36,962 nt of DNA from a virus. Under the pieces are notes generated by a model. It ran no database searches. It was given only the letters and a program-made list of their open reading frames with translations, and was not told the origin of the DNA. This document shows, piece after piece, positions 5,056 to 34,685 of the stretch. The position numbers were made by a program, and so were the translations under genes. Numbering within the stretch: the stretch's first letter is position 1; every line of letters starts with the position of its first letter. The DNA lies in the IMG/VR virus record IMGVR_UViG_3300030060_004303, positions 2,123-39,084 of that record. One strand, 5' to 3'.

Positions 5056-6246
5056 ATGATTTTACCTCCAAACCAACGACCGGCGACGCCTTTTAGATTC
5101 CGACCGACGAATCAAGATGAGCTTTGGAATATGGCGATGATGCTTCAAAATGGAGACAACCGCCGAGCTCACGAAATGATTTTATGTTATGCCGAATTTG
5201 GACATCATTTTGACTATGATCTCGGTATACTCAAGTCACAATGTTTTGTCTTAAAGGGTACACCAGGCCTTAAGGCCGACGCGATCGCCGGCATTTGTCG
5301 AAAGTCGGGCCTCGTCGGTGTTATGCGGATTTCGTCTTGGTCGGATGATCATTGCACGTATCAAGTCAGTCGAATCGATGAACGTGTCGACGGCGTCGAC
5401 ATCATTCATGAGTTTACGTTTACGCGTCAAATGGCCGATGCCCAAGGGTTAACGAGAAATCGAAACTGGGATACAATGCCCCGCCAGATGCATCGCGTTC
5501 GCGCTTTGACGATGGCATTACGTGCACTATTCCCCGACGCTGTAAGCGGCCTATATTCAATCGACGAACTCGCCGATAATATGCCGATGGATGATTACGA
5601 GCGCGCTATGATCACCGCCGAGTCAATCGGCGAAGAGTTAAAGCTTGATTCGAAACCACCGGCACCGAGGCCCGCACCGACCCCAACACCGCAACCCGCA
5701 CCGCAACCCGCACCAACACCCGCACCAACACCCGCACCGACCCCAACACCGGCACCCGAAAAAAAAAGCGATGTTGAGGTTGTCGCAGTAACCGACCCGA
5801 CACCTTATAACGAGTTTAACAATATTGACGACCTCAAAGAAGCCTGTAAATTCAATGAGATCCCGTGGCTAGATGTCGTCGCTCTCGGTCAACGCATCAA
5901 CATCAATATAGAATCGCTTGGCGGTCAACAGTTGAAACTCTTCTACTACACTTGGTGCATGTCGAAGACGCTTCGAGAGGGCGCATTATTAACCGGTTGG
6001 AATCGAAACCTAAGCGAAGCGCGAAACGTGTTTAAATCGCTAAAAGCTGAGTTTCCGAGTATCGCGAATATTGAGAATCGGCATATCGGCGCGAACCTCG
6101 GGAACCCTTCATTTTGGGAATCGGCAAAAGTCGGCGCATCGCTCGCCGGTGACGCGCTTAAAACGGCTCAAGATGATTTAGATAAACTCGCAAAGGCCAA
6201 AGGTCACGACCCGATGTTAGCTTCGAGACTGGCCGCGTTGCGGTAA
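5056..6246 (+). CDS. RecT-like single-strand annealing protein with Pro-rich linker
   Basis: The N-terminal half (about residues 1-190) resembles phage RecT-type annealing proteins: LKADAIAGICRKSG, a core strand with FTFTRQMADAQGL, and NWDTMPRQMHRVRALTMALRALFPDAVSGLYSIDEL, the latter very like the RecT-like 'R..ALRALFPDAV.GLYT.EE' block. Residues about 200-235 are a low-complexity linker of Pro-Ala/Pro-Thr repeats. The C-terminal 160 residues (from NNIDDLKEACKFNEIPW) form a separate unrecognised domain ending in a helix. At 396 residues it is longer than typical RecT because of this extension. AGGAT precedes the start by 7-8 bases. It is last in the regulator operon and overlaps the convergent gene at 6217 by 30 bp. 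No exonuclease gene adjoins it. Confidence 0.65.
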   Translation: MILPPNQRPATPFRFRPTNQDELWNMAMMLQNGDNRRAHEMILCYAEFGHHFDYDLGILKSQCFVLKGTPGLKADAIAGICRKSGLVGVMRISSWSDDHCTYQVSRIDERVDGVDIIHEFTFTRQMADAQGLTRNRNWDTMPRQMHRVRALTMALRALFPDAVSGLYSIDELADNMPMDDYERAMITAESIGEELKLDSKPPAPRPAPTPTPQPAPQPAPTPAPTPAPTPTPAPEKKSDVEVVAVTDPTPYNEFNNIDDLKEACKFNEIPWLDVVALGQRININIESLGGQQLKLFYYTWCMSKTLREGALLTGWNRNLSEARNVFKSLKAEFPSIANIENRHIGANLGNPSFWESAKVGASLAGDALKTAQDDLDKLAKAKGHDPMLASRLAALR

Positions 6247-6495
6247 CGGGGTTCGCGCTTTATAGTCGCGCTCACAAAGTACTTCAATTCGAGTCACCGC
6301 AGCGATTAAGACTTCAAGCTTCGACTCTAAGCTTTCGAATCGATTATCCCAACGTGATCCCCGCGCTTCGAGCGATGCAACTTGTTGTTTTAGTCGCCCG
6401 AGTTGCTCGGCGGCGTTCGCCTTATCTTGACTCATTTTAACAATCATCGCGACAAGCGTTAAAATCACACCTAAGTCGATTCCGCTGATATCCAT
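6217..6495 (-). CDS. small membrane-anchored coiled-coil protein
   Basis: Not recognised. The 92-residue product begins with a hydrophobic segment (GIDLGVILTLVAMIVKMS, about residues 5-22) followed by a long charged heptad-like helix (KANAAEQLGRLKQQVASLEA...FESLESKLEVLIAAVTRIEVL). This is a single N-terminal membrane helix with a coiled coil, like many small phage lysis or tail-end accessory proteins. It is the last minus-strand gene and overlaps the convergent RecT-like gene by 30 bp. AAGGGCTGTGAC precedes the start, two bases after the previous stop. A lysis-related role is inferred from the neighbours. Confidence 0.6.
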   Translation of the reverse strand: MDISGIDLGVILTLVAMIVKMSQDKANAAEQLGRLKQQVASLEARGSRWDNRFESLESKLEVLIAAVTRIEVLCERDYKARTPLPQRGQSRS

Positions 6496-6496
6496 G

Positions 6497-6940
6497 TCAC
6501 AGCCCTTGAATGATCAATATTGACGTCGTGACGACGGCAAACGCGCCGGCGGTGTATGCACCGATTCGCCACTTGTCACGACTCGTATTTGATCTTTTTA
6601 ACAAAGCGTCAATTCGTGAATTTTCGACTTGATACGCTGCGATCACTTCAGCGTCTTTTTGCTCTCGACCGATGACGACTTCGGCGAGCTCGGCGGCCTG
6701 ATTTTTGCAAGCGTCGGCGGCTTCATTTACAGCGACTTCGCATAAGCTCGGCGAGTTTTGCGCGATGTCTTTTAACTGTAGAAACTCAGTCAACGACACC
6801 GACATACAAAAGCCCGTCGACGAATTACACCGCGTTCGCGTCGCTGAAATCGGCGGCAAATGCTCGCCTAAGAAGATCGTGTTCGCCGGCGTTACGTCGG
6901 TTAAGATCGGCGTGAAAAATAGCAAAACGTGAGCAATCAT
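6497..6940 (-). CDS. exported or membrane protein with N-terminal signal-like and C-terminal TM segments
   Basis: Not recognised. ATG 6940 is preferred over the longer frame from 7012 because AAGGA lies upstream and the protein then starts with a signal-peptide-like stretch (MIAHVLLFFTPILTDVTPAN). The 147-residue product has four Cys in its first half, a helical middle (CKNQAAELAEVVIGREQKDAEVIAAYQ) and a C-terminal transmembrane segment (WRIGAYTAGAFAVVTTSILIIQGL). This topology recalls a unimolecular spanin, but no lipobox cysteine follows the signal, so that call is not made. Its start lies just past the stop of the inner-spanin-like gene, and a role in the lysis cassette is plausible. Confidence 0.6.
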   Translation of the reverse strand: MIAHVLLFFTPILTDVTPANTIFLGEHLPPISATRTRCNSSTGFCMSVSLTEFLQLKDIAQNSPSLCEVAVNEAADACKNQAAELAEVVIGREQKDAEVIAAYQVENSRIDALLKRSNTSRDKWRIGAYTAGAFAVVTTSILIIQGL

Positions 6941-6942
6941 GT

Positions 6943-7257
6943 TCAATCCTTGCAAAGCTCGGCGCATGAATTCAAAGCATGCGATACTCTCTCTTGAATC
7001 AACGATTCGCAATCAAGGGCGCAATCGCCCGCCGCTTTTGCTTTGCATGCTGTTAAAGCAATTTGAGCGCTAATCAAATCACTGTTCTTTTGATCTAATT
7101 CAACAGTCAACGTTGCGAGTTCGTCGGCGTGTCTCTCTTCGCTTTGAGTCGCACCAAGATGTATGCCCCAAACATACGCGCCGAGCCACGCGCCGAAGAC
7201 GACCGCGACCGCGCCGACGTATTTTAAGACGTCTTTTGATATATTAAAGTTGATCAC
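6943..7257 (-). CDS. inner-spanin (Rz)-like protein
   Basis: The 104-residue product has one N-terminal membrane helix (about residues 13-32, YVGAVAVVFGAWLGAYVWGI) followed by a charged helix (SEERHADELATLTVELDQKNSDLISAQIAL) and a Cys-rich tail with five cysteines. This is the topology of Rz-type inner-membrane spanins, which together with an outer-membrane lipoprotein fuse the two membranes of Gram-negative hosts at the end of lysis. The start is GTG, overlapping the upstream stop as GTGA. No nested Rz1-like lipoprotein was found. Without a search the family call remains topological. Confidence 0.55.
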   Translation of the reverse strand: MINFNISKDVLKYVGAVAVVFGAWLGAYVWGIHLGATQSEERHADELATLTVELDQKNSDLISAQIALTACKAKAAGDCALDCESLIQERVSHALNSCAELCKD

Positions 7258-11253: not shown

Positions 11254-11462
11254 GTCACCTCTTCTTTTTTTTCGTCTTTTGGGGTTATGCGCTTCGCCGC
11301 GACATTTGCGCCCGCGAAAACGAGATAGAGAGTATCGATTAAACCTAGAATTTCGCCGCTCGCTTTGCCCGACAACGCGAGAACAAACGAACAACCAAGC
11401 GCGGCATAGAAACCGGCCGCTTTACGACCGCCCGCCTTGCCGGTTAGCGTTTGATTACTCAT
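11250..11462 (-). CDS. holin-like membrane protein
   Basis: The 70-residue product has two hydrophobic segments (GFYAALGCSFVLALSG at about 16-31 and EILGLIDTLYLVFAGANVAA at about 36-55) and a highly charged C-terminus (KDEKKEEVT), which matches small two-helix holins that permeabilise the inner membrane to release endolysin. Start ATG 11462 lies eight bases inside the endolysin gene; an upstream in-frame start at 11474 is possible. The direct pairing with the endolysin is the main support; holins are too diverse for a sequence-only family call. Confidence 0.6.
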   Translation of the reverse strand: MSNQTLTGKAGGRKAAGFYAALGCSFVLALSGKASGEILGLIDTLYLVFAGANVAAKRITPKDEKKEEVT

Positions 11463-12111
11463 TAAAATCGACACTTAACAGTCGATAGACGTGCGCGACT
11501 TCGTCGATTGATCGCGAGCGTTGAATTACACCTTCGCCGCGTGAACCGTCGCCGAGTTCGCCGAATGCGTTACCTTCGACCGTTTTAAAATTGCCATCTT
11601 TATCCGCGGGCTCAACGCATAACGTAATATGATCACCGTAACTTTTGCGAGCTCGCGAGTAAACGACGACGATATCGCCAGTTTGCATTTGATCAGTCTC
11701 AATTCGTCGCGAGGTGTTGCCCCAATCGCGATTCATTCGATAGCAACTTGAAAACGTCGACTTGCGAATATCGAGTTTTACCGAATTCCAAGCAAACGAC
11801 GCAAACGCACCGCACCAAGCGAATTGACCGTTTTTTTTGTAAGGCTTCTCCCACGCCCAACCGAGGCCCTGTGACGTGCGAATATATGTATCGATACGAT
11901 TACACGGGTCAACGACTAACGATTCCCACTCGACAAGCGCGCGTTTGATCGCTTCGACTGCTTTAATGTCCGAGTGCGGTGTCGGCCAATGAAGCCGTTT
12001 AGGCTCAAGCTTTTGAATGTCTAAATCGGCTTGATTAAGAGAGCGTTTTAAACGCCTTATGTCATGCTCTAAATCTTCGACTCTAGTTTGTAAATCGGCT
12101 TTAGTCGGCAT
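11455..12111 (-). CDS. CHAP-domain endolysin
   Basis: The 218-residue protein has an N-terminal coiled coil (LQTRVEDLEHDIRRLKRSLN) and a C-terminal CHAP amidase/peptidase domain. The catalytic Cys100 is in FAWCGAFASFAW, His161 in YGDHITLCV, and the acidic/amide partner in TVEGNAFG (about 178-183), all in family order. CHAP enzymes cut peptidoglycan as amidases or endopeptidases. There is no signal peptide, so a holin would release it; the holin candidate overlaps the 3' end. Placement within the tail block rather than beside the spanin-like genes is a little unusual. A virion-associated role is less likely but possible because tail genes flank it. Confidence 0.85.
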   Translation of the reverse strand: MPTKADLQTRVEDLEHDIRRLKRSLNQADLDIQKLEPKRLHWPTPHSDIKAVEAIKRALVEWESLVVDPCNRIDTYIRTSQGLGWAWEKPYKKNGQFAWCGAFASFAWNSVKLDIRKSTFSSCYRMNRDWGNTSRRIETDQMQTGDIVVVYSRARKSYGDHITLCVEPADKDGNFKTVEGNAFGELGDGSRGEGVIQRSRSIDEVAHVYRLLSVDFNE

Positions 12112-26888: not shown

Positions 26889-28844
26889 TCAGCCCCCAAA
26901 CGCTTGATTATAAAATGATGGATTTTCGAGTCGAACAACGCCGAGCGCTTCGCTATAGCTAATCGACTTCTCAGTCGCGACTTGCTTAATACGTGCGTCA
27001 AGTGACTGCTTAGTCACCTCGGCACCGCTTGCGCCGTGCCCGATCTCATTAAGTGGAATCTTCGACGCCCGCTCGCTAAAGTGCGCCCAAAATTCAGGCT
27101 GTAACTCTTTAAGCTCGTAGGCCTTGCCCGCGACCGTTGATTCAGCCGGCGAGATACGACCTTCGGATAAAAGCGCGTTTACAGCTTGATCGCGTTGCAT
27201 CGCGTCACGCTCGGCTTGAAGTGTCGCAAGTGACTCGCGAAGTGCTTGAACTTCAGAGAGCAAAGCGGGCGACGCCGACTCACTCATATTCATGCGCTTA
27301 TACTCTTCGCCGAGTTTTGACTTATCGTCATCGTCGTCTTTTTCGGCGAGTTTCTTCTTGTCGTCGTCGTCGTCTTTTTCGGCGAGTTTTTTCTTGTCGT
27401 CGTCGTCGTCTTTTTCGGTCGCTTTATTAATTGACGATTCTGAGTCTGCTTTCATCTCGGCGATTTTCGCTTCGAGTTGCTTGACCATTTCGTCCTTTGC
27501 GGCGAGTTGCGCGCGCATTTCTTCGACGCTGAGATCATCCATACTGTTAAACCTCTCGTTAAGTGTAATTCGGTCGATTCGGTCGTGAGACTGCGCCGGC
27601 CGTGGTGTTAGTGTTACCGCCAACAATTGAGCGGTGCCGATGCGTTCACCGCCGCCGCGGTCGAAGACGTCACCGGTTAAAAATTCAGGCGATGACCATA
27701 GAACACCGCCCGCATTATTTACGACATCGAGCCCGCGTTCGTTATAAGCGGGCACAGCGTAAAGGCCGTCGTCTCGCAATTCGAGATCAACGATTAAGCC
27801 GAGCGCGTTGCCACTTTCGGGCGGTGCCGGCGACCCGCTGTTTTGATAAGGACTTGTCGCATGTTGCCAGTCGATAATCACGGGGTCTTGCAAACGTCGG
27901 TCTTGATAGACTCGTAAGAGTTCGCTTAAGAGTTCGTGGTCGACTTCTTTGCCGATGCCGTCGCCAGTGAGTCGCGAGTTGACCGCACCGATACCGAGCG
28001 TTTTAAACGGTTTGCCGATTGTCAGGCCGTCGGGCACGTCATAGAGCGAACCGACTTCGACCGACTCACCATAAGACAAAGTATTCGTTTTATTATCTGC
28101 GGCGTTCATCTGTTTAACAATCCTTCGAGCAAATGCGAAACCGGCGTCACCGCCCCAACCGTGCCAAGCTTGCCAACCTTTGCCCTTGTCCGACCATGAC
28201 GCGCCGGCCTTGTCGGATTCGTGGCGGGTGAAATATGCAAGCATGCGCTTTGCTGTTTCGGGCGACACTTGACGACCGTTTTTAAGGTCGCGAGCTCGGG
28301 CGATACCGACGGGCGTCATGCCTCGTTGCGATGATGGTTTTGATTCGCGTACTTTTAAAGCACGGTCGGCCGCTTCACGGACTGCTTTGGGCGGGCTGAA
28401 GTCAATATGCGAATATTTGTCAGGAACCTCGCTACGCTTTTCGACTTTCTCGACATGCTGCGGGTGATCTTTTGGTAATAGATCTAAGTCGCCCGTGTAT
28501 GCTTTTTTGCGTTGACCCGTCGCGACTAATTTTAGAAACGTGCGAACGCGAGCGACGGCCCATTGATTTCGGTTCATGCCTGGCCGATGCGATACACTGA
28601 AGGCACCCGCACCGCGACGAAATACCGCTTTCAACATACCGAGGTCGACACGCCGACTCTTCTTAGTGAATCGGGCATTATGATCATCACGTAACTTTTC
28701 GAGTGCTTTGACCGCCCGCTCGCCGATCTCTATACCGCCACGCGATCCACCCGCCGAGCCCTTCGGGTTCTTGGCGCTGCCCTTTACTTGATCGCTTTTA
28801 GGTGCCGGCGTTTGCGCCTTCGTTCGTTTTTTGATCTTAACCAT
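26889..28844 (-). CDS. head maturation protease fused to scaffold (Mu gpI-like)
   Basis: The 651-residue protein combines several parts. Residues about 1-160 are basic and contain AVFRRGAGAFSVSHRPGM and NQWAVARVRTFLKL, a module seen in phage head proteins. Residues about 195-250 hold a second module (SPETAKRMLAYFTRHESDK, WHGWGGDAGFAFARRIVKQM). About 250-440 is a Mu I-type protease domain (VIIDWQHATSPYQ, GNALGLIVDLELRDDGLYAV, GVLWSSPEFL, AVTLTPRPA). The rest is a scaffold-like coiled coil (MDDLSVEEMRAQLAAKDEMV onward) with three EKDDDDDKKKLA-type repeats at about 475-510. Such proteases cut the scaffold and often themselves. The gene overlaps the portal stop by eight bases. Confidence 0.78.
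   Translation of the reverse strand: MVKIKKRTKAQTPAPKSDQVKGSAKNPKGSAGGSRGGIEIGERAVKALEKLRDDHNARFTKKSRRVDLGMLKAVFRRGAGAFSVSHRPGMNRNQWAVARVRTFLKLVATGQRKKAYTGDLDLLPKDHPQHVEKVEKRSEVPDKYSHIDFSPPKAVREAADRALKVRESKPSSQRGMTPVGIARARDLKNGRQVSPETAKRMLAYFTRHESDKAGASWSDKGKGWQAWHGWGGDAGFAFARRIVKQMNAADNKTNTLSYGESVEVGSLYDVPDGLTIGKPFKTLGIGAVNSRLTGDGIGKEVDHELLSELLRVYQDRRLQDPVIIDWQHATSPYQNSGSPAPPESGNALGLIVDLELRDDGLYAVPAYNERGLDVVNNAGGVLWSSPEFLTGDVFDRGGGERIGTAQLLAVTLTPRPAQSHDRIDRITLNERFNSMDDLSVEEMRAQLAAKDEMVKQLEAKIAEMKADSESSINKATEKDDDDDKKKLAEKDDDDDKKKLAEKDDDDDKSKLGEEYKRMNMSESASPALLSEVQALRESLATLQAERDAMQRDQAVNALLSEGRISPAESTVAGKAYELKELQPEFWAHFSERASKIPLNEIGHGASGAEVTKQSLDARIKQVATEKSISYSEALGVVRLENPSFYNQAFGG
27311..27420. 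repeat. 36-bp tandem repeat in protease/scaffold gene
   Basis: Three copies of a 36-bp unit, each encoding EKDDDDDKKKLA or a close variant on the minus strand. Being a multiple of three, copy number can change without breaking the frame. Confidence 0.8.
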
Positions 28845-30237
28845 TTCGACGACTCGCGATAAGCTTTTCAGTTAACGCCGAAACCGCACCGCTACCACCG
28901 CCGGCGGCGACTCTTGAAAGTGGCGATCGTTGTGCATCTTCAGGCAGATCACCCGCGCCGAGTCGTTCGCGTATCGCTCTCTCGAGTTCATCATCGGGCG
29001 TCAATAGACCCGCTTGAACAAGCGCGGGTAACGCGGCGAGTGAGTCGGCGAGATCGTCGGTATCAAGACCCGTATGTGTCAACCTTGGCAGTTTCGACGG
29101 GTCGACAAGTCCATAATTCCAACGAATCAAACGGCCGATTGTGCCGGCCCCCTGGCGGTCGACACCGCTTACCGCCGACGCGACGATATCGCAAAGATTA
29201 ATCGCGGCACGTCGAAATACACTTAGATGTATCTCACCGACCGAGCGCGAACCGGTTTCAGTGTTTCCGAGGTCGGCGAATTGAGTTAGAAAAGCGGCGC
29301 TAATTTGAGAGTCGCATTTCGTAATGATGTTAAGCGGGCCGTCGACGTGGAAGTTATTCGCGGGTGAATACGTGTCGAATTTGACCGCCGGATTTTCGAC
29401 TAAATACGATTGTTCGGTCGCGAGCAGCGCTTGCGCTTGGCCTTCGCCTTCGTTGATCATCGCGTCGATATCGCCGTCGGTGAGTCCTAATGATTCGGCT
29501 TGCGATCGGTCGATAACGAGTTTAGGCGTCGGGATCGCCCAACGATCGGCAGCGACACACATTAAATTTGAAATACGCTGTTTAGTTCGCCAAAACCACC
29601 AAACCGGCCGAAGCATGCCGATGCCTTCGAAATTCGAGCCCGTCTTATTGAGCGTTAAGAGTAACAGTTTATTTGACGGTATCGGTTGCGCTTGGGTATT
29701 CGCGCCGACGGTGTTTTGCATAACCCCGTCAAGCGTTTGATTATCGCGTGATAACCAACGTTGATGCGCGCTTGGTTCGCGGTCGGCGTAATGAGATAAC
29801 CAAACGCGAACGCGCCCCGTTGAATCCGGCCCGACCTTGTAACACTCTTCGGCGTATCGATAGCCGAGCGGTATAAACTGGAATAGATATTGAAGTTGAT
29901 CTTCCCAAGATAGAGTCATTTGACCCGCGTACCCGTCGAAGCCAAAGGCCTCGTTTGCATACCTCGCGAGCTCGGCGCTGACAACATCGTTTTCGATACC
30001 GGGTTCGAAACGCCAAGTCGCCGACAATAGCGTTTGCCTCAACATGTGCCAAGACCGCATAACAATCGGATCGGTTCGCAACATCTCTTCGGCTTCATTA
30101 ACCCAATTGAGCCCGCTAAGCTTTGCGTTTTGCTCGTAACCTGAGATGACCCCGCCCGACAAACTAGTACCGGTGATGCCGCGTGTCTCAAACCGCGGCG
30201 TCATCGCTCTAAAATGTTTGTGTTTTGGGTTTTGCAT
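28837..30237 (-). CDS. portal protein (Mu gp29-like, DUF935 family)
   Basis: The 466-residue protein forms the DNA entry ring. Typical DUF935 features: RTDPIVMRSWHMLRQTLLSATWRFEPG near the start, PLGYRYAEECYKVG, KTGSNFEGIGMLRPVWWFWRTKQRI, WAIPTPKLVIDR, and TGSRSVGEIHLSVFRRAAINLCDIVASAV. ATG 30237 is chosen over a TTG at 30267 because it opens a normal start (MQNPKHKHFRAMTPRFETRG) after a purine-rich ACGGGG. It overlaps the protease gene by eight bases. A 204-base gap with a structured element precedes it, which is unusual in this compact genome. Confidence 0.85.
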   Translation of the reverse strand: MQNPKHKHFRAMTPRFETRGITGTSLSGGVISGYEQNAKLSGLNWVNEAEEMLRTDPIVMRSWHMLRQTLLSATWRFEPGIENDVVSAELARYANEAFGFDGYAGQMTLSWEDQLQYLFQFIPLGYRYAEECYKVGPDSTGRVRVWLSHYADREPSAHQRWLSRDNQTLDGVMQNTVGANTQAQPIPSNKLLLLTLNKTGSNFEGIGMLRPVWWFWRTKQRISNLMCVAADRWAIPTPKLVIDRSQAESLGLTDGDIDAMINEGEGQAQALLATEQSYLVENPAVKFDTYSPANNFHVDGPLNIITKCDSQISAAFLTQFADLGNTETGSRSVGEIHLSVFRRAAINLCDIVASAVSGVDRQGAGTIGRLIRWNYGLVDPSKLPRLTHTGLDTDDLADSLAALPALVQAGLLTPDDELERAIRERLGAGDLPEDAQRSPLSRVAAGGGSGAVSALTEKLIASRRNG

Positions 30238-30372
30238 TGATGCCCCGTAAAGGTCGGAAATTGTCAACTAAAATATTTAAGCGACATCAATACTCATGAG
30301 TAGTTTACAGTTTAAAATCAATCGTGTCTAGTGTAGAGTAAAGCTCTCGATTGTTGCAGATCATTTGATTTT
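30238..30372 (-). promoter_or_regulatory. leader region before portal gene
   Basis: No gene is seen. The minus strand contains ACTCATGAGT (a palindrome at about 30292-30301), an AT-rich TAAATATTTTA and a TTGACA about 35 bases before the portal ATG, but no convincing -35/-10 pair. With the structured element next to it, this is likely a regulatory leader. Confidence 0.3.
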
Positions 30373-30441
30373 GATAAACGAGGCGATCTTCGCCAGCCTC
30401 ACAGGGTGCCGGTTATCCGGCAGGGGTCGCCTTCGTTTATC
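30373..30441 (-). ncRNA. structured RNA element upstream of portal gene
   Basis: A 69-nt element directly after the stop of the membrane-protein gene. Outer stem GATAAACGA/TCGTTTATC (9 bp, perfect) encloses hairpin GCCGG-ATAA-CCGGC and hairpin GGCGA-AGA-TCGCC (minus-strand reading). The 5' GGCGA next to the outer stem can compete with the second hairpin for the same TCGCC, extending the outer stem to 14 pairs with one bulge. There is no U-run on either strand, so it is not a simple terminator; it could be a regulatory RNA, processing site or packaging signal. Confidence 0.45.
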
Positions 30442-30915
30442 TTAGTCTCTACTCGGTAGCCACTCGGCGACCGAAGGGTGCAAGACGACCTCTGACTCGT
30501 CGCGGGTTTTGATCACCTGGTCACCTGAGAACAAACTTAGCTTGTCGATCATAGCTTGCTGGAGCTCGCTTTGTTGCTCTCGAAGTAATTGCATTTGGAT
30601 TTGTGCATCGCGTAACCGACCGATAAGGGCAGCGCGGTCGGCGTTCGCGCTTGAGAGTTTATCTTTTAACTCTTCGACTTCCGACGGATCACGACCCGAC
30701 GCGATCGCGAGCATTGAAGAGATAGAACCGGTGACGACTCCGAGTATTCCGACTAGTACATCGCGGTTTTTTTCAACGATCTCGACATACGTTAAAAACA
30801 ATACAAGGCCGACGACGAGCACCATAAACACGACCGAAAACCACCAACCACGCCGAGCCTTTTCAACTCGCGTTAACTCTTTTTCACTTCTCGGTTTTGG
30901 GGTCAATTCATTCAT
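30442..30915 (-). CDS. two-helix membrane protein with coiled coil, partner of cyclase
   Basis: Not recognised. The 157-residue protein has two membrane helices (about 25-44, FSVVFMVLVVGLVLFLTYVE, and about 53-72, VLVGILGVVTGSISSMLAIA) with a short loop, and then a long charged coiled coil (about 78-128, SEVEELKDKLSSANADR onward, rich in Gln and Arg). The N- and C-termini are probably cytoplasmic. It overlaps the cyclase gene by eight bases, so the two are cotranslated. No cyclic-nucleotide-binding domain is visible, but an effector or scaffold for a cyclase signal is the natural hypothesis. It precedes the structured element at 30373-30441. Confidence 0.62.
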   Translation of the reverse strand: MNELTPKPRSEKELTRVEKARRGWWFSVVFMVLVVGLVLFLTYVEIVEKNRDVLVGILGVVTGSISSMLAIASGRDPSEVEELKDKLSSANADRAALIGRLRDAQIQMQLLREQQSELQQAMIDKLSLFSGDQVIKTRDESEVVLHPSVAEWLPSRD

Positions 30916-31693
30916 AAAACAACCGGCGATAAAATAGAGTCATCAGTCGAAACGGTTCATAGTTCGCGCTGAGATATGGCCACAATACATATATGATATA
31001 GATCGCGTTGACGACTGCAAACCGTTTCAAGGTCCACCATATCCACTCTATCAAGCGACGATGCCGAGCACGTGACTTGATGCGCTTAGGCCCGCCCAAT
31101 CGTTTCGCTTTATCCGAACCCGCCGGCGGTTGTAGCGACTTGATGCTTTGCCCGACGGCGTAAACAACGCGAGCGCCGGCGATGCCCTTGAATTTATACA
31201 GTCCAACTTGAGCATATCGAACACCGCGCGGTGTATCATAGTTCGTTTGATTTTTCACGCGGGCGAACGCATCGGCCGACATGAGCACTTGCCCCGCCTG
31301 GCATAACGACATGATACGAGCGGCGAGATTTTTCGCAACGCCTTCGAGCTCAACTGGCTTTGCGCCGACCAAAACATCAAGTTCGCGTTGCGTGACCTCG
31401 GCGACGGTGCCGACGTGTATGCCGATTCGAGTATTCAACCTCGTCTTATGCGGTATTGTCATTTGATAATGCAAAGCGAAATTGACGGCGTTGATAGGTT
31501 CCTCGAAACTAATTAGAAAACCGTCGCTTCGGTCGATCTCGCGACCGCTGAACTTGAACATAAGCGAACGGGTTAAACGGTCGTGATATTGAAGCCACTC
31601 GGCGGCCTTCGTATGCCCGACGCGCTGAACAAACCGAGTTGACCCGATGAGATCAAGTAAGACGATTGAAAGCTCGCGGGTTTTGATCTGCAT
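30908..31693 (-). CDS. class III adenylate/guanylate-type nucleotidyl cyclase, membrane anchored
   Basis: The 261-residue protein has a class III cyclase homology domain (about 5-160). Metal-binding Asp14 is in LLDLIGST and Asp57 in REIDRSDGFLISFE; RIGIHVGTV (about 89-97) and GVAKNLAARI (118-127, with the catalytic-type Asn122 and Arg126) are in order, followed by GQVLMSADAF. The usual purine-selecting Lys before GDGF is not clearly present (EIDRSDGF), so the product could be cAMP, cGMP or a pyrimidine cyclic nucleotide. A single membrane helix is predicted near 225-241 (FAVVNAIYIIYVLWPYL), so the enzyme is tethered. It sits between methyltransferase and portal genes and overlaps a membrane-protein gene. 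Phage cyclases of this class are rare. Confidence 0.82.
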   Translation of the reverse strand: MQIKTRELSIVLLDLIGSTRFVQRVGHTKAAEWLQYHDRLTRSLMFKFSGREIDRSDGFLISFEEPINAVNFALHYQMTIPHKTRLNTRIGIHVGTVAEVTQRELDVLVGAKPVELEGVAKNLAARIMSLCQAGQVLMSADAFARVKNQTNYDTPRGVRYAQVGLYKFKGIAGARVVYAVGQSIKSLQPPAGSDKAKRLGGPKRIKSRARHRRLIEWIWWTLKRFAVVNAIYIIYVLWPYLSANYEPFRLMTLFYRRLFYE

Positions 31694-31700
31694 TTAACAC

Positions 31701-32906
31701 CTAAAACAATTTGAGTTGTCCGGTTTTCTCTTCGTCTTCAGCTATCACATTTTCGCGGTTACCCGACCAATAATCAACCCGCGACTCTATAATCGATATG
31801 TATTCGGCCTCGCGTTCAATACCGACAATCTCGACACCTTCTAACACCGCGGCGCATAGCGTTGTACCCGAACCGGCGAACGGTTCCAAGACGACACCGT
31901 CGGGCGGTGTTATCAACCTGATAAGATAACGCATAAGATCAATTGGCTTAACCGTCGGGTGTATATTATCACCGTTAACGCCGGCGTGACGTTCGTAGGT
32001 GCTCGGCTTCGGTGAGTAGAAAAAACGAGCGTCACGACCTAAACGCGGGTCAAGTTTTGCTTGCTCGTCAAAGATGACGTTTGCCGGCCAACGACCTTTC
32101 TTATGACTCGGCGCTGAATATCTTAAGCCTATTTTAGAACTATTAAATTGGACCCCATTTACGCCAAAATTACCGCCGTCTCTTGTCGTTTTTTCACCGT
32201 TTAAAGCAATCCTACACCCGTCAATATTTAGCCCGCCGGTGCCATACTCAAGCACATTTTCGGCGACGGTGCCGGCGAGCGGTTTACGAACTAAAAGGAT
32301 CGGCTCGTAAGCGGGTTTTAAGGCGGTGCCGAACCCTTCGTATTTCTTAGCTTGTTCGCTTGCCGGCGCTGTAATGTCTATCGTTGTCTCTTCGTATTCA
32401 TCAACTAAACCGCATCGAACATGTCCGTTTGTATTGGTGCCTTTTACACGGCGAGCGGTGCCGGTCATTCGTTGTTCTCCGATGATTTCACGCTCAAACC
32501 CTAAATGTCTATCGAGAGCTTTACTAACATTATGACTCTTTGGAAAACCGCTTCCATAGATCCACTGCAAAACGTCGCGAACTTCAAAACCGGCCAACCG
32601 CAAAGACAACCCCATTAAATCCTGAGTTCGCGAACCGGCGAAGATTAAAGCGTGCCCCCCTGGCTTTAAGACTCGGTAGACTTCCGACCATAGAGTCGGG
32701 CTCGGAACCCAACTATCCCAAGTCTTAGACATGAACCCGCCGCCGGTCGCCGTGTATGCTTCATCGTTTAACCATGCTCTTAAACATGCCTTAACGCTCG
32801 CGGGTGTACAAGCCGATAAACCATAAGGCGGATCGGTGACGACCGCATCAAAATGGTTGTCTTCATACCCTTTTAAAACTTCTAAGCTATCACCATGAAT
32901 TATCAA
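31701..32906 (-). CDS. DNA adenine/cytosine-N4 methyltransferase, beta-type
   Basis: The 401-residue protein methylates DNA at an exocyclic amino group. Motif IV DPPYG is at residues 25-29, and the AdoMet-binding motif FAGSGTT at 343-349 after HPTVKP, so the order is permuted as in beta-class N6A/N4C enzymes. A long insertion between (about 120-290) probably holds the target-recognition region. No restriction endonuclease is adjacent, so it is an orphan, most likely protecting phage DNA or regulating packaging. It overlaps terL by four bases. Target sequence cannot be read from the protein. Confidence 0.88.
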   Translation of the reverse strand: MIIHGDSLEVLKGYEDNHFDAVVTDPPYGLSACTPASVKACLRAWLNDEAYTATGGGFMSKTWDSWVPSPTLWSEVYRVLKPGGHALIFAGSRTQDLMGLSLRLAGFEVRDVLQWIYGSGFPKSHNVSKALDRHLGFEREIIGEQRMTGTARRVKGTNTNGHVRCGLVDEYEETTIDITAPASEQAKKYEGFGTALKPAYEPILLVRKPLAGTVAENVLEYGTGGLNIDGCRIALNGEKTTRDGGNFGVNGVQFNSSKIGLRYSAPSHKKGRWPANVIFDEQAKLDPRLGRDARFFYSPKPSTYERHAGVNGDNIHPTVKPIDLMRYLIRLITPPDGVVLEPFAGSGTTLCAAVLEGVEIVGIEREAEYISIIESRVDYWSGNRENVIAEDEEKTGQLKLF

Positions 32907-34291
32907 AACGACCTCGATTTGCCCGTGCCTATTTTAACCCGTCGCGACGTTGGTGCCGGTGCGCTGTACTGTCGTCGGTCGACGATGTTTTGGTTCCAAT
33001 TCCAAGTAATGCAGTCGTATCGCAAAGCGTCAAGCGGGTCCTCTCGACCGTCTTTTTTCGGTAACTCTTTATTATCCCAGCCGTAAGTCATGAGCGCTTT
33101 GCGGATCGAATTACCCGTCGCCCGTTCGCCCGCGGTCCACACTTCGCGAGTGATGCGATATTGACCTCGCGAAAACGCCCTTTTCAATCGTTGCACCCCG
33201 TTTAATATGTCGGTGCGTATCGGGTCAGTGTTTGACCTTAACGGCATACCTAGGCCTTTCGGCGGTTCGGCCCGCATAGCTCGAAAAGCCGACCGGCCGG
33301 TTTGATCGTTACGAGCTCGCCCCGCTTTATCTGCGACCCCGTAATCAAGCCAAATGCGCGACGACGGTGCGCGACTCTTCAGCGACCGAGGCCACGCGAC
33401 GCAAAGTATCAAACGGGCTAACTCTTCGACGGTGACTTCGGCGGGGTTCATCTCGGCGGCGATGACATCGGCGCCTAAGTCGGGATCGTGAACGATAATC
33501 AAAACCGACGGTTTACGGAATCCCCAATCGATCGCGATCCGGCCCGACATCTCAGGTCGATACTTCCAATCGTCGAGAACGTGTTGGTCTTCGTCAAATT
33601 CTGAATAAACTAGACCCGACGGCGGGCGCGGTTTATTCATGACCATCGCCTCACGTTCGGCCTTCGGCAATAGTTTAGTCGCCTCGAACCATGCTTCGGA
33701 TAGATTCGCTTCGTTGACATACGAAGTGTAGAGTAAGGGCAAACACCCCGCCGTCTCTGCTAATTGACACCACCATGCGCCCGACACCGGCAAGCCGACC
33801 AAGATCATAATAGGCGATGGACCCGACCGAAGACGACCAAGCGCCTTTTGCGCGACTTCGGCGGTAAGCGTTTGACACTCGTCAACTAAGCATACCCCGC
33901 TTGTTATGTTCAGGCCTTCGAGTGGGTTGTGTGTCGCGTCGCGGGTGCCTGGGCGATAATATGAACGACACCAAACCTCCGAGCCGGTATCGGGGTCGGT
34001 CCATTTCCGCAGCGTATGGTTATAGGTCCAGTTGAGCGGGCCTAGCCATTTTTGCATTTCGGGCATTAACACCGATTGATAACGCGGGTTCGTATCGGTG
34101 ATCAGTAAAGACGATGTACCCCGCCGAAGTCGAGAGACTAAAAGAAGGGCGAAGACTAGCGCCGACGTCTTGCCCGATCCCCAACCGCACCGCGCCGCGA
34201 TGATCCGGTCATCTCTGATGATTGCCTTTTGGATCGCTTGCTGTAACGGGTTATAGATCGGCCTAGGGATCGATTGTGGCGTCGTCGTCAT
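32903..34291 (-). CDS. terminase large subunit
   Basis: The 462-residue packaging motor has an ATPase domain with Walker A GWGSGKTS at 36-43 and Walker B VCLVDECQ with the catalytic Glu at 138, and a C-terminal RNase H-like nuclease with acidic residues in RIAIDWG (Asp255) and IWLDYG (Asp316), and a third in KDGREDPLDALRY near the end. The start lies 29 bases inside the small subunit gene. With small subunit upstream and portal downstream, it drives DNA into the prohead. cos or headful packaging cannot be decided; the circularly permuted ends fit headful packaging or simply a circular assembly. Confidence 0.9.
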   Translation of the reverse strand: MTTTPQSIPRPIYNPLQQAIQKAIIRDDRIIAARCGWGSGKTSALVFALLLVSRLRRGTSSLLITDTNPRYQSVLMPEMQKWLGPLNWTYNHTLRKWTDPDTGSEVWCRSYYRPGTRDATHNPLEGLNITSGVCLVDECQTLTAEVAQKALGRLRSGPSPIMILVGLPVSGAWWCQLAETAGCLPLLYTSYVNEANLSEAWFEATKLLPKAEREAMVMNKPRPPSGLVYSEFDEDQHVLDDWKYRPEMSGRIAIDWGFRKPSVLIIVHDPDLGADVIAAEMNPAEVTVEELARLILCVAWPRSLKSRAPSSRIWLDYGVADKAGRARNDQTGRSAFRAMRAEPPKGLGMPLRSNTDPIRTDILNGVQRLKRAFSRGQYRITREVWTAGERATGNSIRKALMTYGWDNKELPKKDGREDPLDALRYDCITWNWNQNIVDRRQYSAPAPTSRRVKIGTGKSRSF

Positions 34292-34685
34292 CGTCGTCGC
34301 TTTCGTTGTCAGCTACGAGCTCGTATCGTAATTGTTCGATCATATCTTTTACGAGGTCATCGCCGTCGCTTTTCGCGTTTGTGACATTGATATCAACTTC
34401 ACGTCGTTCACCCCAATCGGCGGGCGCGACACTTTTAAGGTATGTAAACGCCGACCGCCAATCGCCCTGCAAACCTTGTTCGATCAAGACGTTTGTCATT
34501 TTCGCCCGCTGTATGCTTTGCGCTGATTTACAATCGAGAGTCCACTCGCCTTCATCGCCGGACTCTTCAAGCCACCTATAATACGTTTCTCTGCTTATGC
34601 CCGCTTGCGCGCATGCGTCGGTGATATTCAAGCCCGCTTCGAACTCTTTTAATAATCGTTCACGTACTTCTTTAGATTTCGTCAT
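34263..34685 (-). CDS. terminase small subunit
   Basis: The 140-residue product has an N-terminal helix-turn-helix (ACAQAGISRETYYRWLEESG at about 24-43), the recognition domain of phage small terminases, then a helical region (GLQGDWRSAFTYLKSVAPADWGER) that is typical of terminase small subunits, and an acidic tail (SDDDDDDATIDP). It should recognise the packaging site and recruit the large subunit, whose gene starts inside its 3' end. The ribosome-binding site is weak, so expression may depend on the upstream transcript. Confidence 0.8.
   Translation of the reverse strand: MTKSKEVRERLLKEFEAGLNITDACAQAGISRETYYRWLEESGDEGEWTLDCKSAQSIQRAKMTNVLIEQGLQGDWRSAFTYLKSVAPADWGERREVDINVTNAKSDGDDLVKDMIEQLRYELVADNESDDDDDDATIDP

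Follow-up and report, generated by a model that had tools for sequence, protein, structure and literature searches.

Two overlapping phage genes, one for a membrane-held class III nucleotidyl cyclase (CYC) and one for a small protein with two predicted membrane helices (TM2), were found together in many, quite different uncultured phages, and this suggests that phages possess their own membrane signalling switch. Cyclic nucleotides in the contest between phage and host are known mainly as host defence. If true, the proposal would place cyclic-nucleotide signalling on the phage side as well, from 37-kb phages with Mu-type heads to T4-like phages, and the pair is a two-gene system small enough for direct testing. 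In its specific form, in which the product of the membrane-held cyclase would gate the two-helix protein and so, on several unrelated phage backgrounds, control the membrane against competitors or time the end of infection, the proposal is possible at best and must be called doubtful.

The pair lies in the window, the whole 36,962-nucleotide stretch that was analysed (bases 2123-39084 of a 39,084-base IMG/VR virus record). On the minus strand, genes for TerS (34263-34685), TerL (32903-34291) and a DNA methylase (31701-32906) are followed by CYC, TM2, a Mu-type portal (28837-30267) and a protease (26889-28844). The coordinates, the 8-bp overlap and the place in the packaging/head region that had been assigned by a sequence-only reading were all correct, and both genes start with ATG (Table 1). 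With start codons chosen by script, an overlap of 4-22 bp was seen in 122 of the 134 loci that carry both genes, and translational coupling is its likely meaning. Both genes are under purifying selection, with a median pairwise dN/dS of 0.065 for CYC (233 pairs, 133 distinct sequences) and 0.044 for TM2 (217 pairs, 129 distinct sequences). Chance open reading frames were ruled out because both genes are conserved and have these low ratios.

Table 1. Features of the cyclase and membrane-protein pair in the window (position 1 is the first base of the window).
Feature	Coordinates	Strand	Basis or remark
CYC, class III nucleotidyl cyclase, 261 aa	30908..31693	-	ORF, TIGR04510 match, Foldseek
CYC catalytic domain and start of linker, residues 1-200	31094..31693	-	Alignments
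CYC C-terminal membrane helix, residues 225-243	30965..31021	-	Hydropathy; model helix 214-244
TM2, 157 aa, two membrane helices and cytosolic coiled coil	30442..30915	-	ORF, relatives, model
TM2 membrane helix 1, residues 26-44	30784..30840	-	Kyte-Doolittle mean 2.72
TM2 membrane helix 2, residues 53-71	30703..30759	-	Kyte-Doolittle mean 2.16; followed by invariant GRDP (74-77)
TM2 long helix (coiled coil), residues 77-129	30529..30687	-	Model; conserved LIxRLRDxQ
8-bp overlap of CYC stop and TM2 start	30908..30915	-	ORF coordinates
14-bp direct repeat, copy 1, at CYC start	31674..31687	-	One end of L142 deletion
14-bp direct repeat, copy 2, at TM2 end	30500..30513	-	Other end of L142 deletion

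The AlphaFold2 model of CYC (mean pLDDT 89.6) has the fold of the cyclase homology domain, and its best Foldseek matches are the class III cyclases Rv1900c (LipJ) and Ma1120 (E 1e-13). CYC shares with these two the fold (TM-score by target up to 0.92) and the catalytic positions, but only about 24% identity, and the base-selecting residues are different. The Pfam Guanylate_cyc model gave 20.5 bits, slightly below its cut-off of 21.9. From established knowledge of class III enzymes we take D14 and D57 to be the metal aspartates and N122 and R126 the transition-state pair. In a CYC alignment of 134 rows, in which the window is counted twice (as WINDOW and as L001), D14 was Asp in 128/128 filled rows, D57 was Asp in 129/129, and N122 and R126 were invariant in 131/131. 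The full catalytic set of a class III cyclase, recognised earlier from the letters, is thus present and invariant, and CYC is apparently catalytically active, as judged from its family and these residues. Such strict conservation argues against a catalytically dead decoy, and a dead enzyme or decoy shell was disfavoured. Membrane segments were defined as hydrophobic 19-mers whose Kyte-Doolittle mean reaches 1.4; CYC has one and TM2 has two, which bears out the C-terminal anchor that had been proposed for the cyclase. The CYC segment reached 1.4 in 119 of 131 rows (minimum 0.94), so that a predicted C-terminal membrane segment is a trait of the CYC family, weak in some members.

The best family match of CYC is TIGR04510 (mod_pep_cyc; 157.3 bits, E 6.2e-46), a cellular 'putative peptide modification system cyclase' with reading frames of about 843-965 aa. 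CYC residues 10-198 align to profile positions 8-204, and CYC stays below the curated score of 400 bits over 814 positions, as it has no more than the N-terminal cyclase part of the family. Both share a shortened EID[RK]-S/T-DG hairpin, an insertion, a GAKxxE[VL]EGxxK motif and a QPP-like linker followed by a membrane segment, after which the phage protein ends. In a tree made by a quick method that carried long-branch warnings, the phage cyclases form one clade (94), sister to cellular TIGR04510 (union 99, starred). Motifs and tree together place the CYC cyclase domain in the TIGR04510 lineage. The transition-state Asn is kept in 131/131 phage rows, whereas it is Pro in the 7/7 full-length cellular TIGR04510 proteins compared, and the cellular TIGR04510 loci, seen as short stretches, had no TM2 homolog.

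The Ma1120 lysine aligns to a gap in CYC (phmmer alignment), and the statement that CYC has no obvious purine-selecting Lys therefore holds. The presumed base-site positions are D54, R55, F59 and E115. D54 is invariant, and E115 stands in the alignment where canonical relatives have Asp. In the T4-like cyclases R55 is replaced by A, S or N, F59 by H and E115 by N (18/18 distinct rows). Since R55, F59 and E115 surround the presumed base site, the cyclase product may differ between groups. TM2 stays alike while these positions change, which makes it less likely that TM2 has a base-specific receptor site.

TM2 was modelled with a pLDDT of only 71, with helices at 11-43, 51-72 and 77-129, and hydropathy and model agree with the two membrane helices and coiled coil described previously. 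TM2 is the more conserved partner, with a mean column identity of 70% in its alignment (A2) against 61% for CYC (A1). All 24 of the 24 TM2 members matched phrog_9990 (best 7.1e-06), a family without known function. No fold match at E 0.001 or better was returned by PDB and BFVD searches, and family searches matched TM2 neither to a holin family nor to a cyclic-nucleotide-binding domain. The absence of a recognisable nucleotide-binding domain had been read from the sequence; TM2 is too short for a cyclic-nucleotide-binding one. SLATT-type proteins also have a two-helix membrane segment, but TM2 scored 17.6 bits with SLATT_fungal against a cut-off of 26.5. Matches to SLATT, KwaA, PD-T4-6, PspM and similar families were weak, below cut-off or scattered, and these candidates were rejected.

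An IMG/VR scan with CYC gave 88 confirmed relatives, of which the best 80 were used; scans with TM2 gave 242, or 301 with an alignment query, and the best 80 of each were used. Both genes were present in 134 of 139 first loci, some of them from the same contig, and the other five are cut by the locus or contig end. The adjacent pair thus recurs in other phages, contrary to the refuting outcome named in the sequence-only reading, and at least 117 distinct full-length pairs were collected from the fetched IMG/VR loci. CYC was seen without TM2 only where a contig end truncates the locus. Searching with a divergent cyclase added 20 T4-like loci, 20/20 with TM2 downstream within 4 kb; TM2 lies within about 105 bp of CYC in 14/20, and other genes separate the two in 6/20. 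The T4-like capsid protein Gp23 was detected in 3/10 of the records searched (239, 211 and 95 kb). Three more contexts with the pair (L029, L080 and the L038/L054/L062 group) contain no relatives of the window TerL or portal within the fetched loci. Among 50,697 GenBank phages there was no match to TM2 or to the divergent CYC, and the window CYC had a single, weak match (MT838110, 27% identity). MT838110 was rejected as a relative of the pair because its cyclase belongs to an open frame of 920 aa and TM2 is absent from the stretch examined. A TM2 pattern scan of 84,980 prokaryote genomes returned one contig, L140, and plasmids gave no CYC match at E 1e-10 and no TM2 match at 0.01. Literature searches on phage-encoded cyclases, with subscription papers mostly outside their coverage, showed nothing about the pair.

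TM2 also occurs alone. There was INDEPENDENCE of parts in L140 and 18 viral contigs, where TM2 lies beside an inverted TerL with no CYC. This cyclase-less form accounts for 19/19 loci of a sister phage lineage (13 distinct sequences), and CYC was found in none of six whole viral records of that lineage nor in the L140 genome, while two control records were positive. At 25 positions, which include GRDP and parts of LIxRLRD, TM2 is at least 97% constant and has the same residue in the 101 paired as in the 13 solo sequences; these residues are therefore not there for CYC. Positions 51, 56, 67, 68, 72, 79, 81, 96 and 109 are constant within each set and different between the sets, which may reflect descent only, the solo set being one lineage. 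The conserved pairing of cyclase and membrane protein claimed by the sequence-only reading thus stands, but a view of TM2 as no more than the effector of an obligate pair does not fit. The core element appears to be TM2, with CYC as an added regulator, because TM2 is too short for a cyclic-nucleotide-binding domain, none was seen in the 16 phage records searched, and TM2 occurs solo. In L140 and in L269-L286, the inverted TerL and a methylase adjoin the cyclase-less TM2.

A further set of 80 loci was fetched by portal, chosen to avoid selection by the pair. The pair was present in 66. Of the 14 loci without it, 12 have less than 1.5 kb upstream of the portal (two with a TM2 fragment and one, L142, with a remnant); L163 and L182 also lack it, giving 66 with and 2 without in 68 informative loci. 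A core function fits this ratio as well as a defence-type accessory does. In L142 (portal 93-94% identical) the pair was lost by a 1,174-bp deletion between the two copies of the 14-bp repeat, leaving an in-frame remnant of 25 codons; the deletion may be an assembly artefact. The pair is dispensable in at least one contig, and its loss was tolerated in L142 and L163. The L163 locus has a natural pairless arrangement in which the portal directly follows TerL (L163:6782-6909). The pair is present in 128/129 loci that have TerL and portal on one strand, a count biased by the fetching mode. Pairwise distances in 52 Mu-head loci correlated at r 0.80 for CYC and TM2 and at r 0.85 for CYC and TerL. 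The correlation was dropped as proof of co-evolution after this TerL control, since it gives no sign of partner-specific co-evolution. A quick tree of TM2 disagrees with that of CYC in places, and the T4-like TM2s are not one clade.

Between TerL and portal, cluster representatives of the variable genes include ThyX (cluster of 61), dCMP deaminase (26), DUF3310 (23), a D12 DNA methylase (16) and a C5 methylase (5), and Mom-family DNA modification proteins flank the pair in L029 and L054. Elsewhere on the minus strand of the window, a CHAP-like endolysin (11455-12111) and a putative lysis cluster (6217-7257) of one-TM coiled-coil and spanin-like proteins were noted by eye; the stretch 6497-7012 had no phage family match.

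We tentatively favour a cyclase-controlled phage membrane effector with TM2 as its core, perhaps aimed at competing phages, a reading we regard as possible rather than probable. CYC would be an active class III cyclase placed at the inner face of the membrane by its C-terminal helix. TM2 would form a two-helix hairpin with a cytosolic coiled coil, probably oligomerising, and would alter how the host membrane behaves, for instance its permeability or the entry of DNA. CYC would turn TM2 on or off through a cyclic nucleotide, through contact within the membrane, or both. Its likeliest use would be against competing phages or a host response, given that the pair has DNA-modification and nucleotide genes around it and that it can be lost. 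This mechanism is supported by the invariant catalytic residues, purifying selection, retention on different backgrounds, the gene overlap and solo TM2, and we also count for it the Mom-family proteins and DNA methylases nearby and the tolerated loss. Against it stand the lack of a known fold or functional family for TM2, the CYC-TM2 correlation relative to that with TerL, the separated T4-like genes, the tree differences, the T4-like base-site changes that leave TM2 alike and the near-universal presence of the pair in close relatives.

It is unlikely, if still worth weighing, that CYC reprogrammes the host by raising a host cyclic nucleotide (cAMP, cGMP or another) read by host receptors, with TM2 an independent protein that shares the operon. 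The receptor would then be the host's, as no cyclic-nucleotide-binding domain was seen in the phage records, and the solo TM2 and the distance correlation not above that of CYC with TerL also agree with it; yet the pair persists on several unrelated backgrounds, with its genes adjacent and overlapping in most cases, and CYC without TM2 was found only at contig ends. We think it still less likely that TM2 acts in lysis like a holin or antiholin, with CYC setting lysis timing. The two-helix topology would suit such a role, both genes lie on the head-gene strand, and in L038, L042 and L054 a relative of the endolysin-like gene adjoins CYC; however, the window has a separate holin/spanin-like cluster away from the pair, TM2 matched no holin family in the searches and loss of the pair is tolerated.

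That the pair is a true Pycsar-type abortive system, making cUMP or cCMP upon infection by a second phage with TM2 acting like PycTM, is improbable. In Pycsar (PycC with PycTM or PycTIR), as in the phage pair, a cyclase gene lies beside a gene for a membrane protein, here a small one. A PycTM need not match PF00027. The phage pair differs in being phage-borne, in a cyclase of another lineage and in a partner that is also found alone and has no recognisable nucleotide-binding domain. PycC models matched the window CYC weakly (E 0.0033 and 0.023), far below TIGR04510; among 33 CYC members the best PycC match was 7.3e-06, and PDLC02367 matched in 5/33. The AnPycC residues F60, K104 and F109, as reported in PMC11224242, would correspond to L12, R55 and L60 in CYC if placed by offset from the metal Asp only. 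The cyclic-nucleotide-binding domain PF00027 was found in 0/16 phage records, which are possibly fragments, with a control positive in 11/14 genomes. The pair resembles Pycsar in outline, but membership in Pycsar is not supported, and the link drawn earlier gave way to TIGR04510 as the nearest cellular kin. Least probable of all is counter-defence, in which a flood of cyclic nucleotide would mislead or saturate a host defence based on such nucleotides; the anti-restriction-type genes near the pair and the conserved catalysis would fit, yet TM2 would be unneeded, although it is the better conserved partner and exists alone.

A Cys-rich mini-protein (about 12 Cys, CxxCG...CxC) immediately precedes CYC in 25 of the 120 distinct upstream regions, in Mu-head, T4-like and L080 contexts (split: S 14, T4-like 10, L080 1), and is a possible third component. 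Examples are L151:1618-1812, L080:7749-7994 and L203:7708-7995; it is absent in the window, and the L203 copy had no Pfam match. Between TM2 and portal the window contains an RNA hairpin (30365-30445, minus strand; z -4.6, 0/200 shuffles as stable). Its invariant core, GGATAACCGGCACCCTNTGAGG, is found in five contigs only (window, L002, L003, L004 and L142), and each of the five copies folds, with a long outer stem of differing sequence. The hairpin had no Rfam match and stayed unproven as a covarying RNA, since many of its pairs are broken in the alignment, where covariation contributes an unfavourable +3.32. Behind it lies a promoter-like site (30302-30330, minus strand; 9 of 12 positions), of a kind found 6 times against 4.4 expected. 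A similar CTAGACAC...TAAACT stretch was seen by eye in L002, L003 and L142, and because it recurs the portal genes may have their own promoter.
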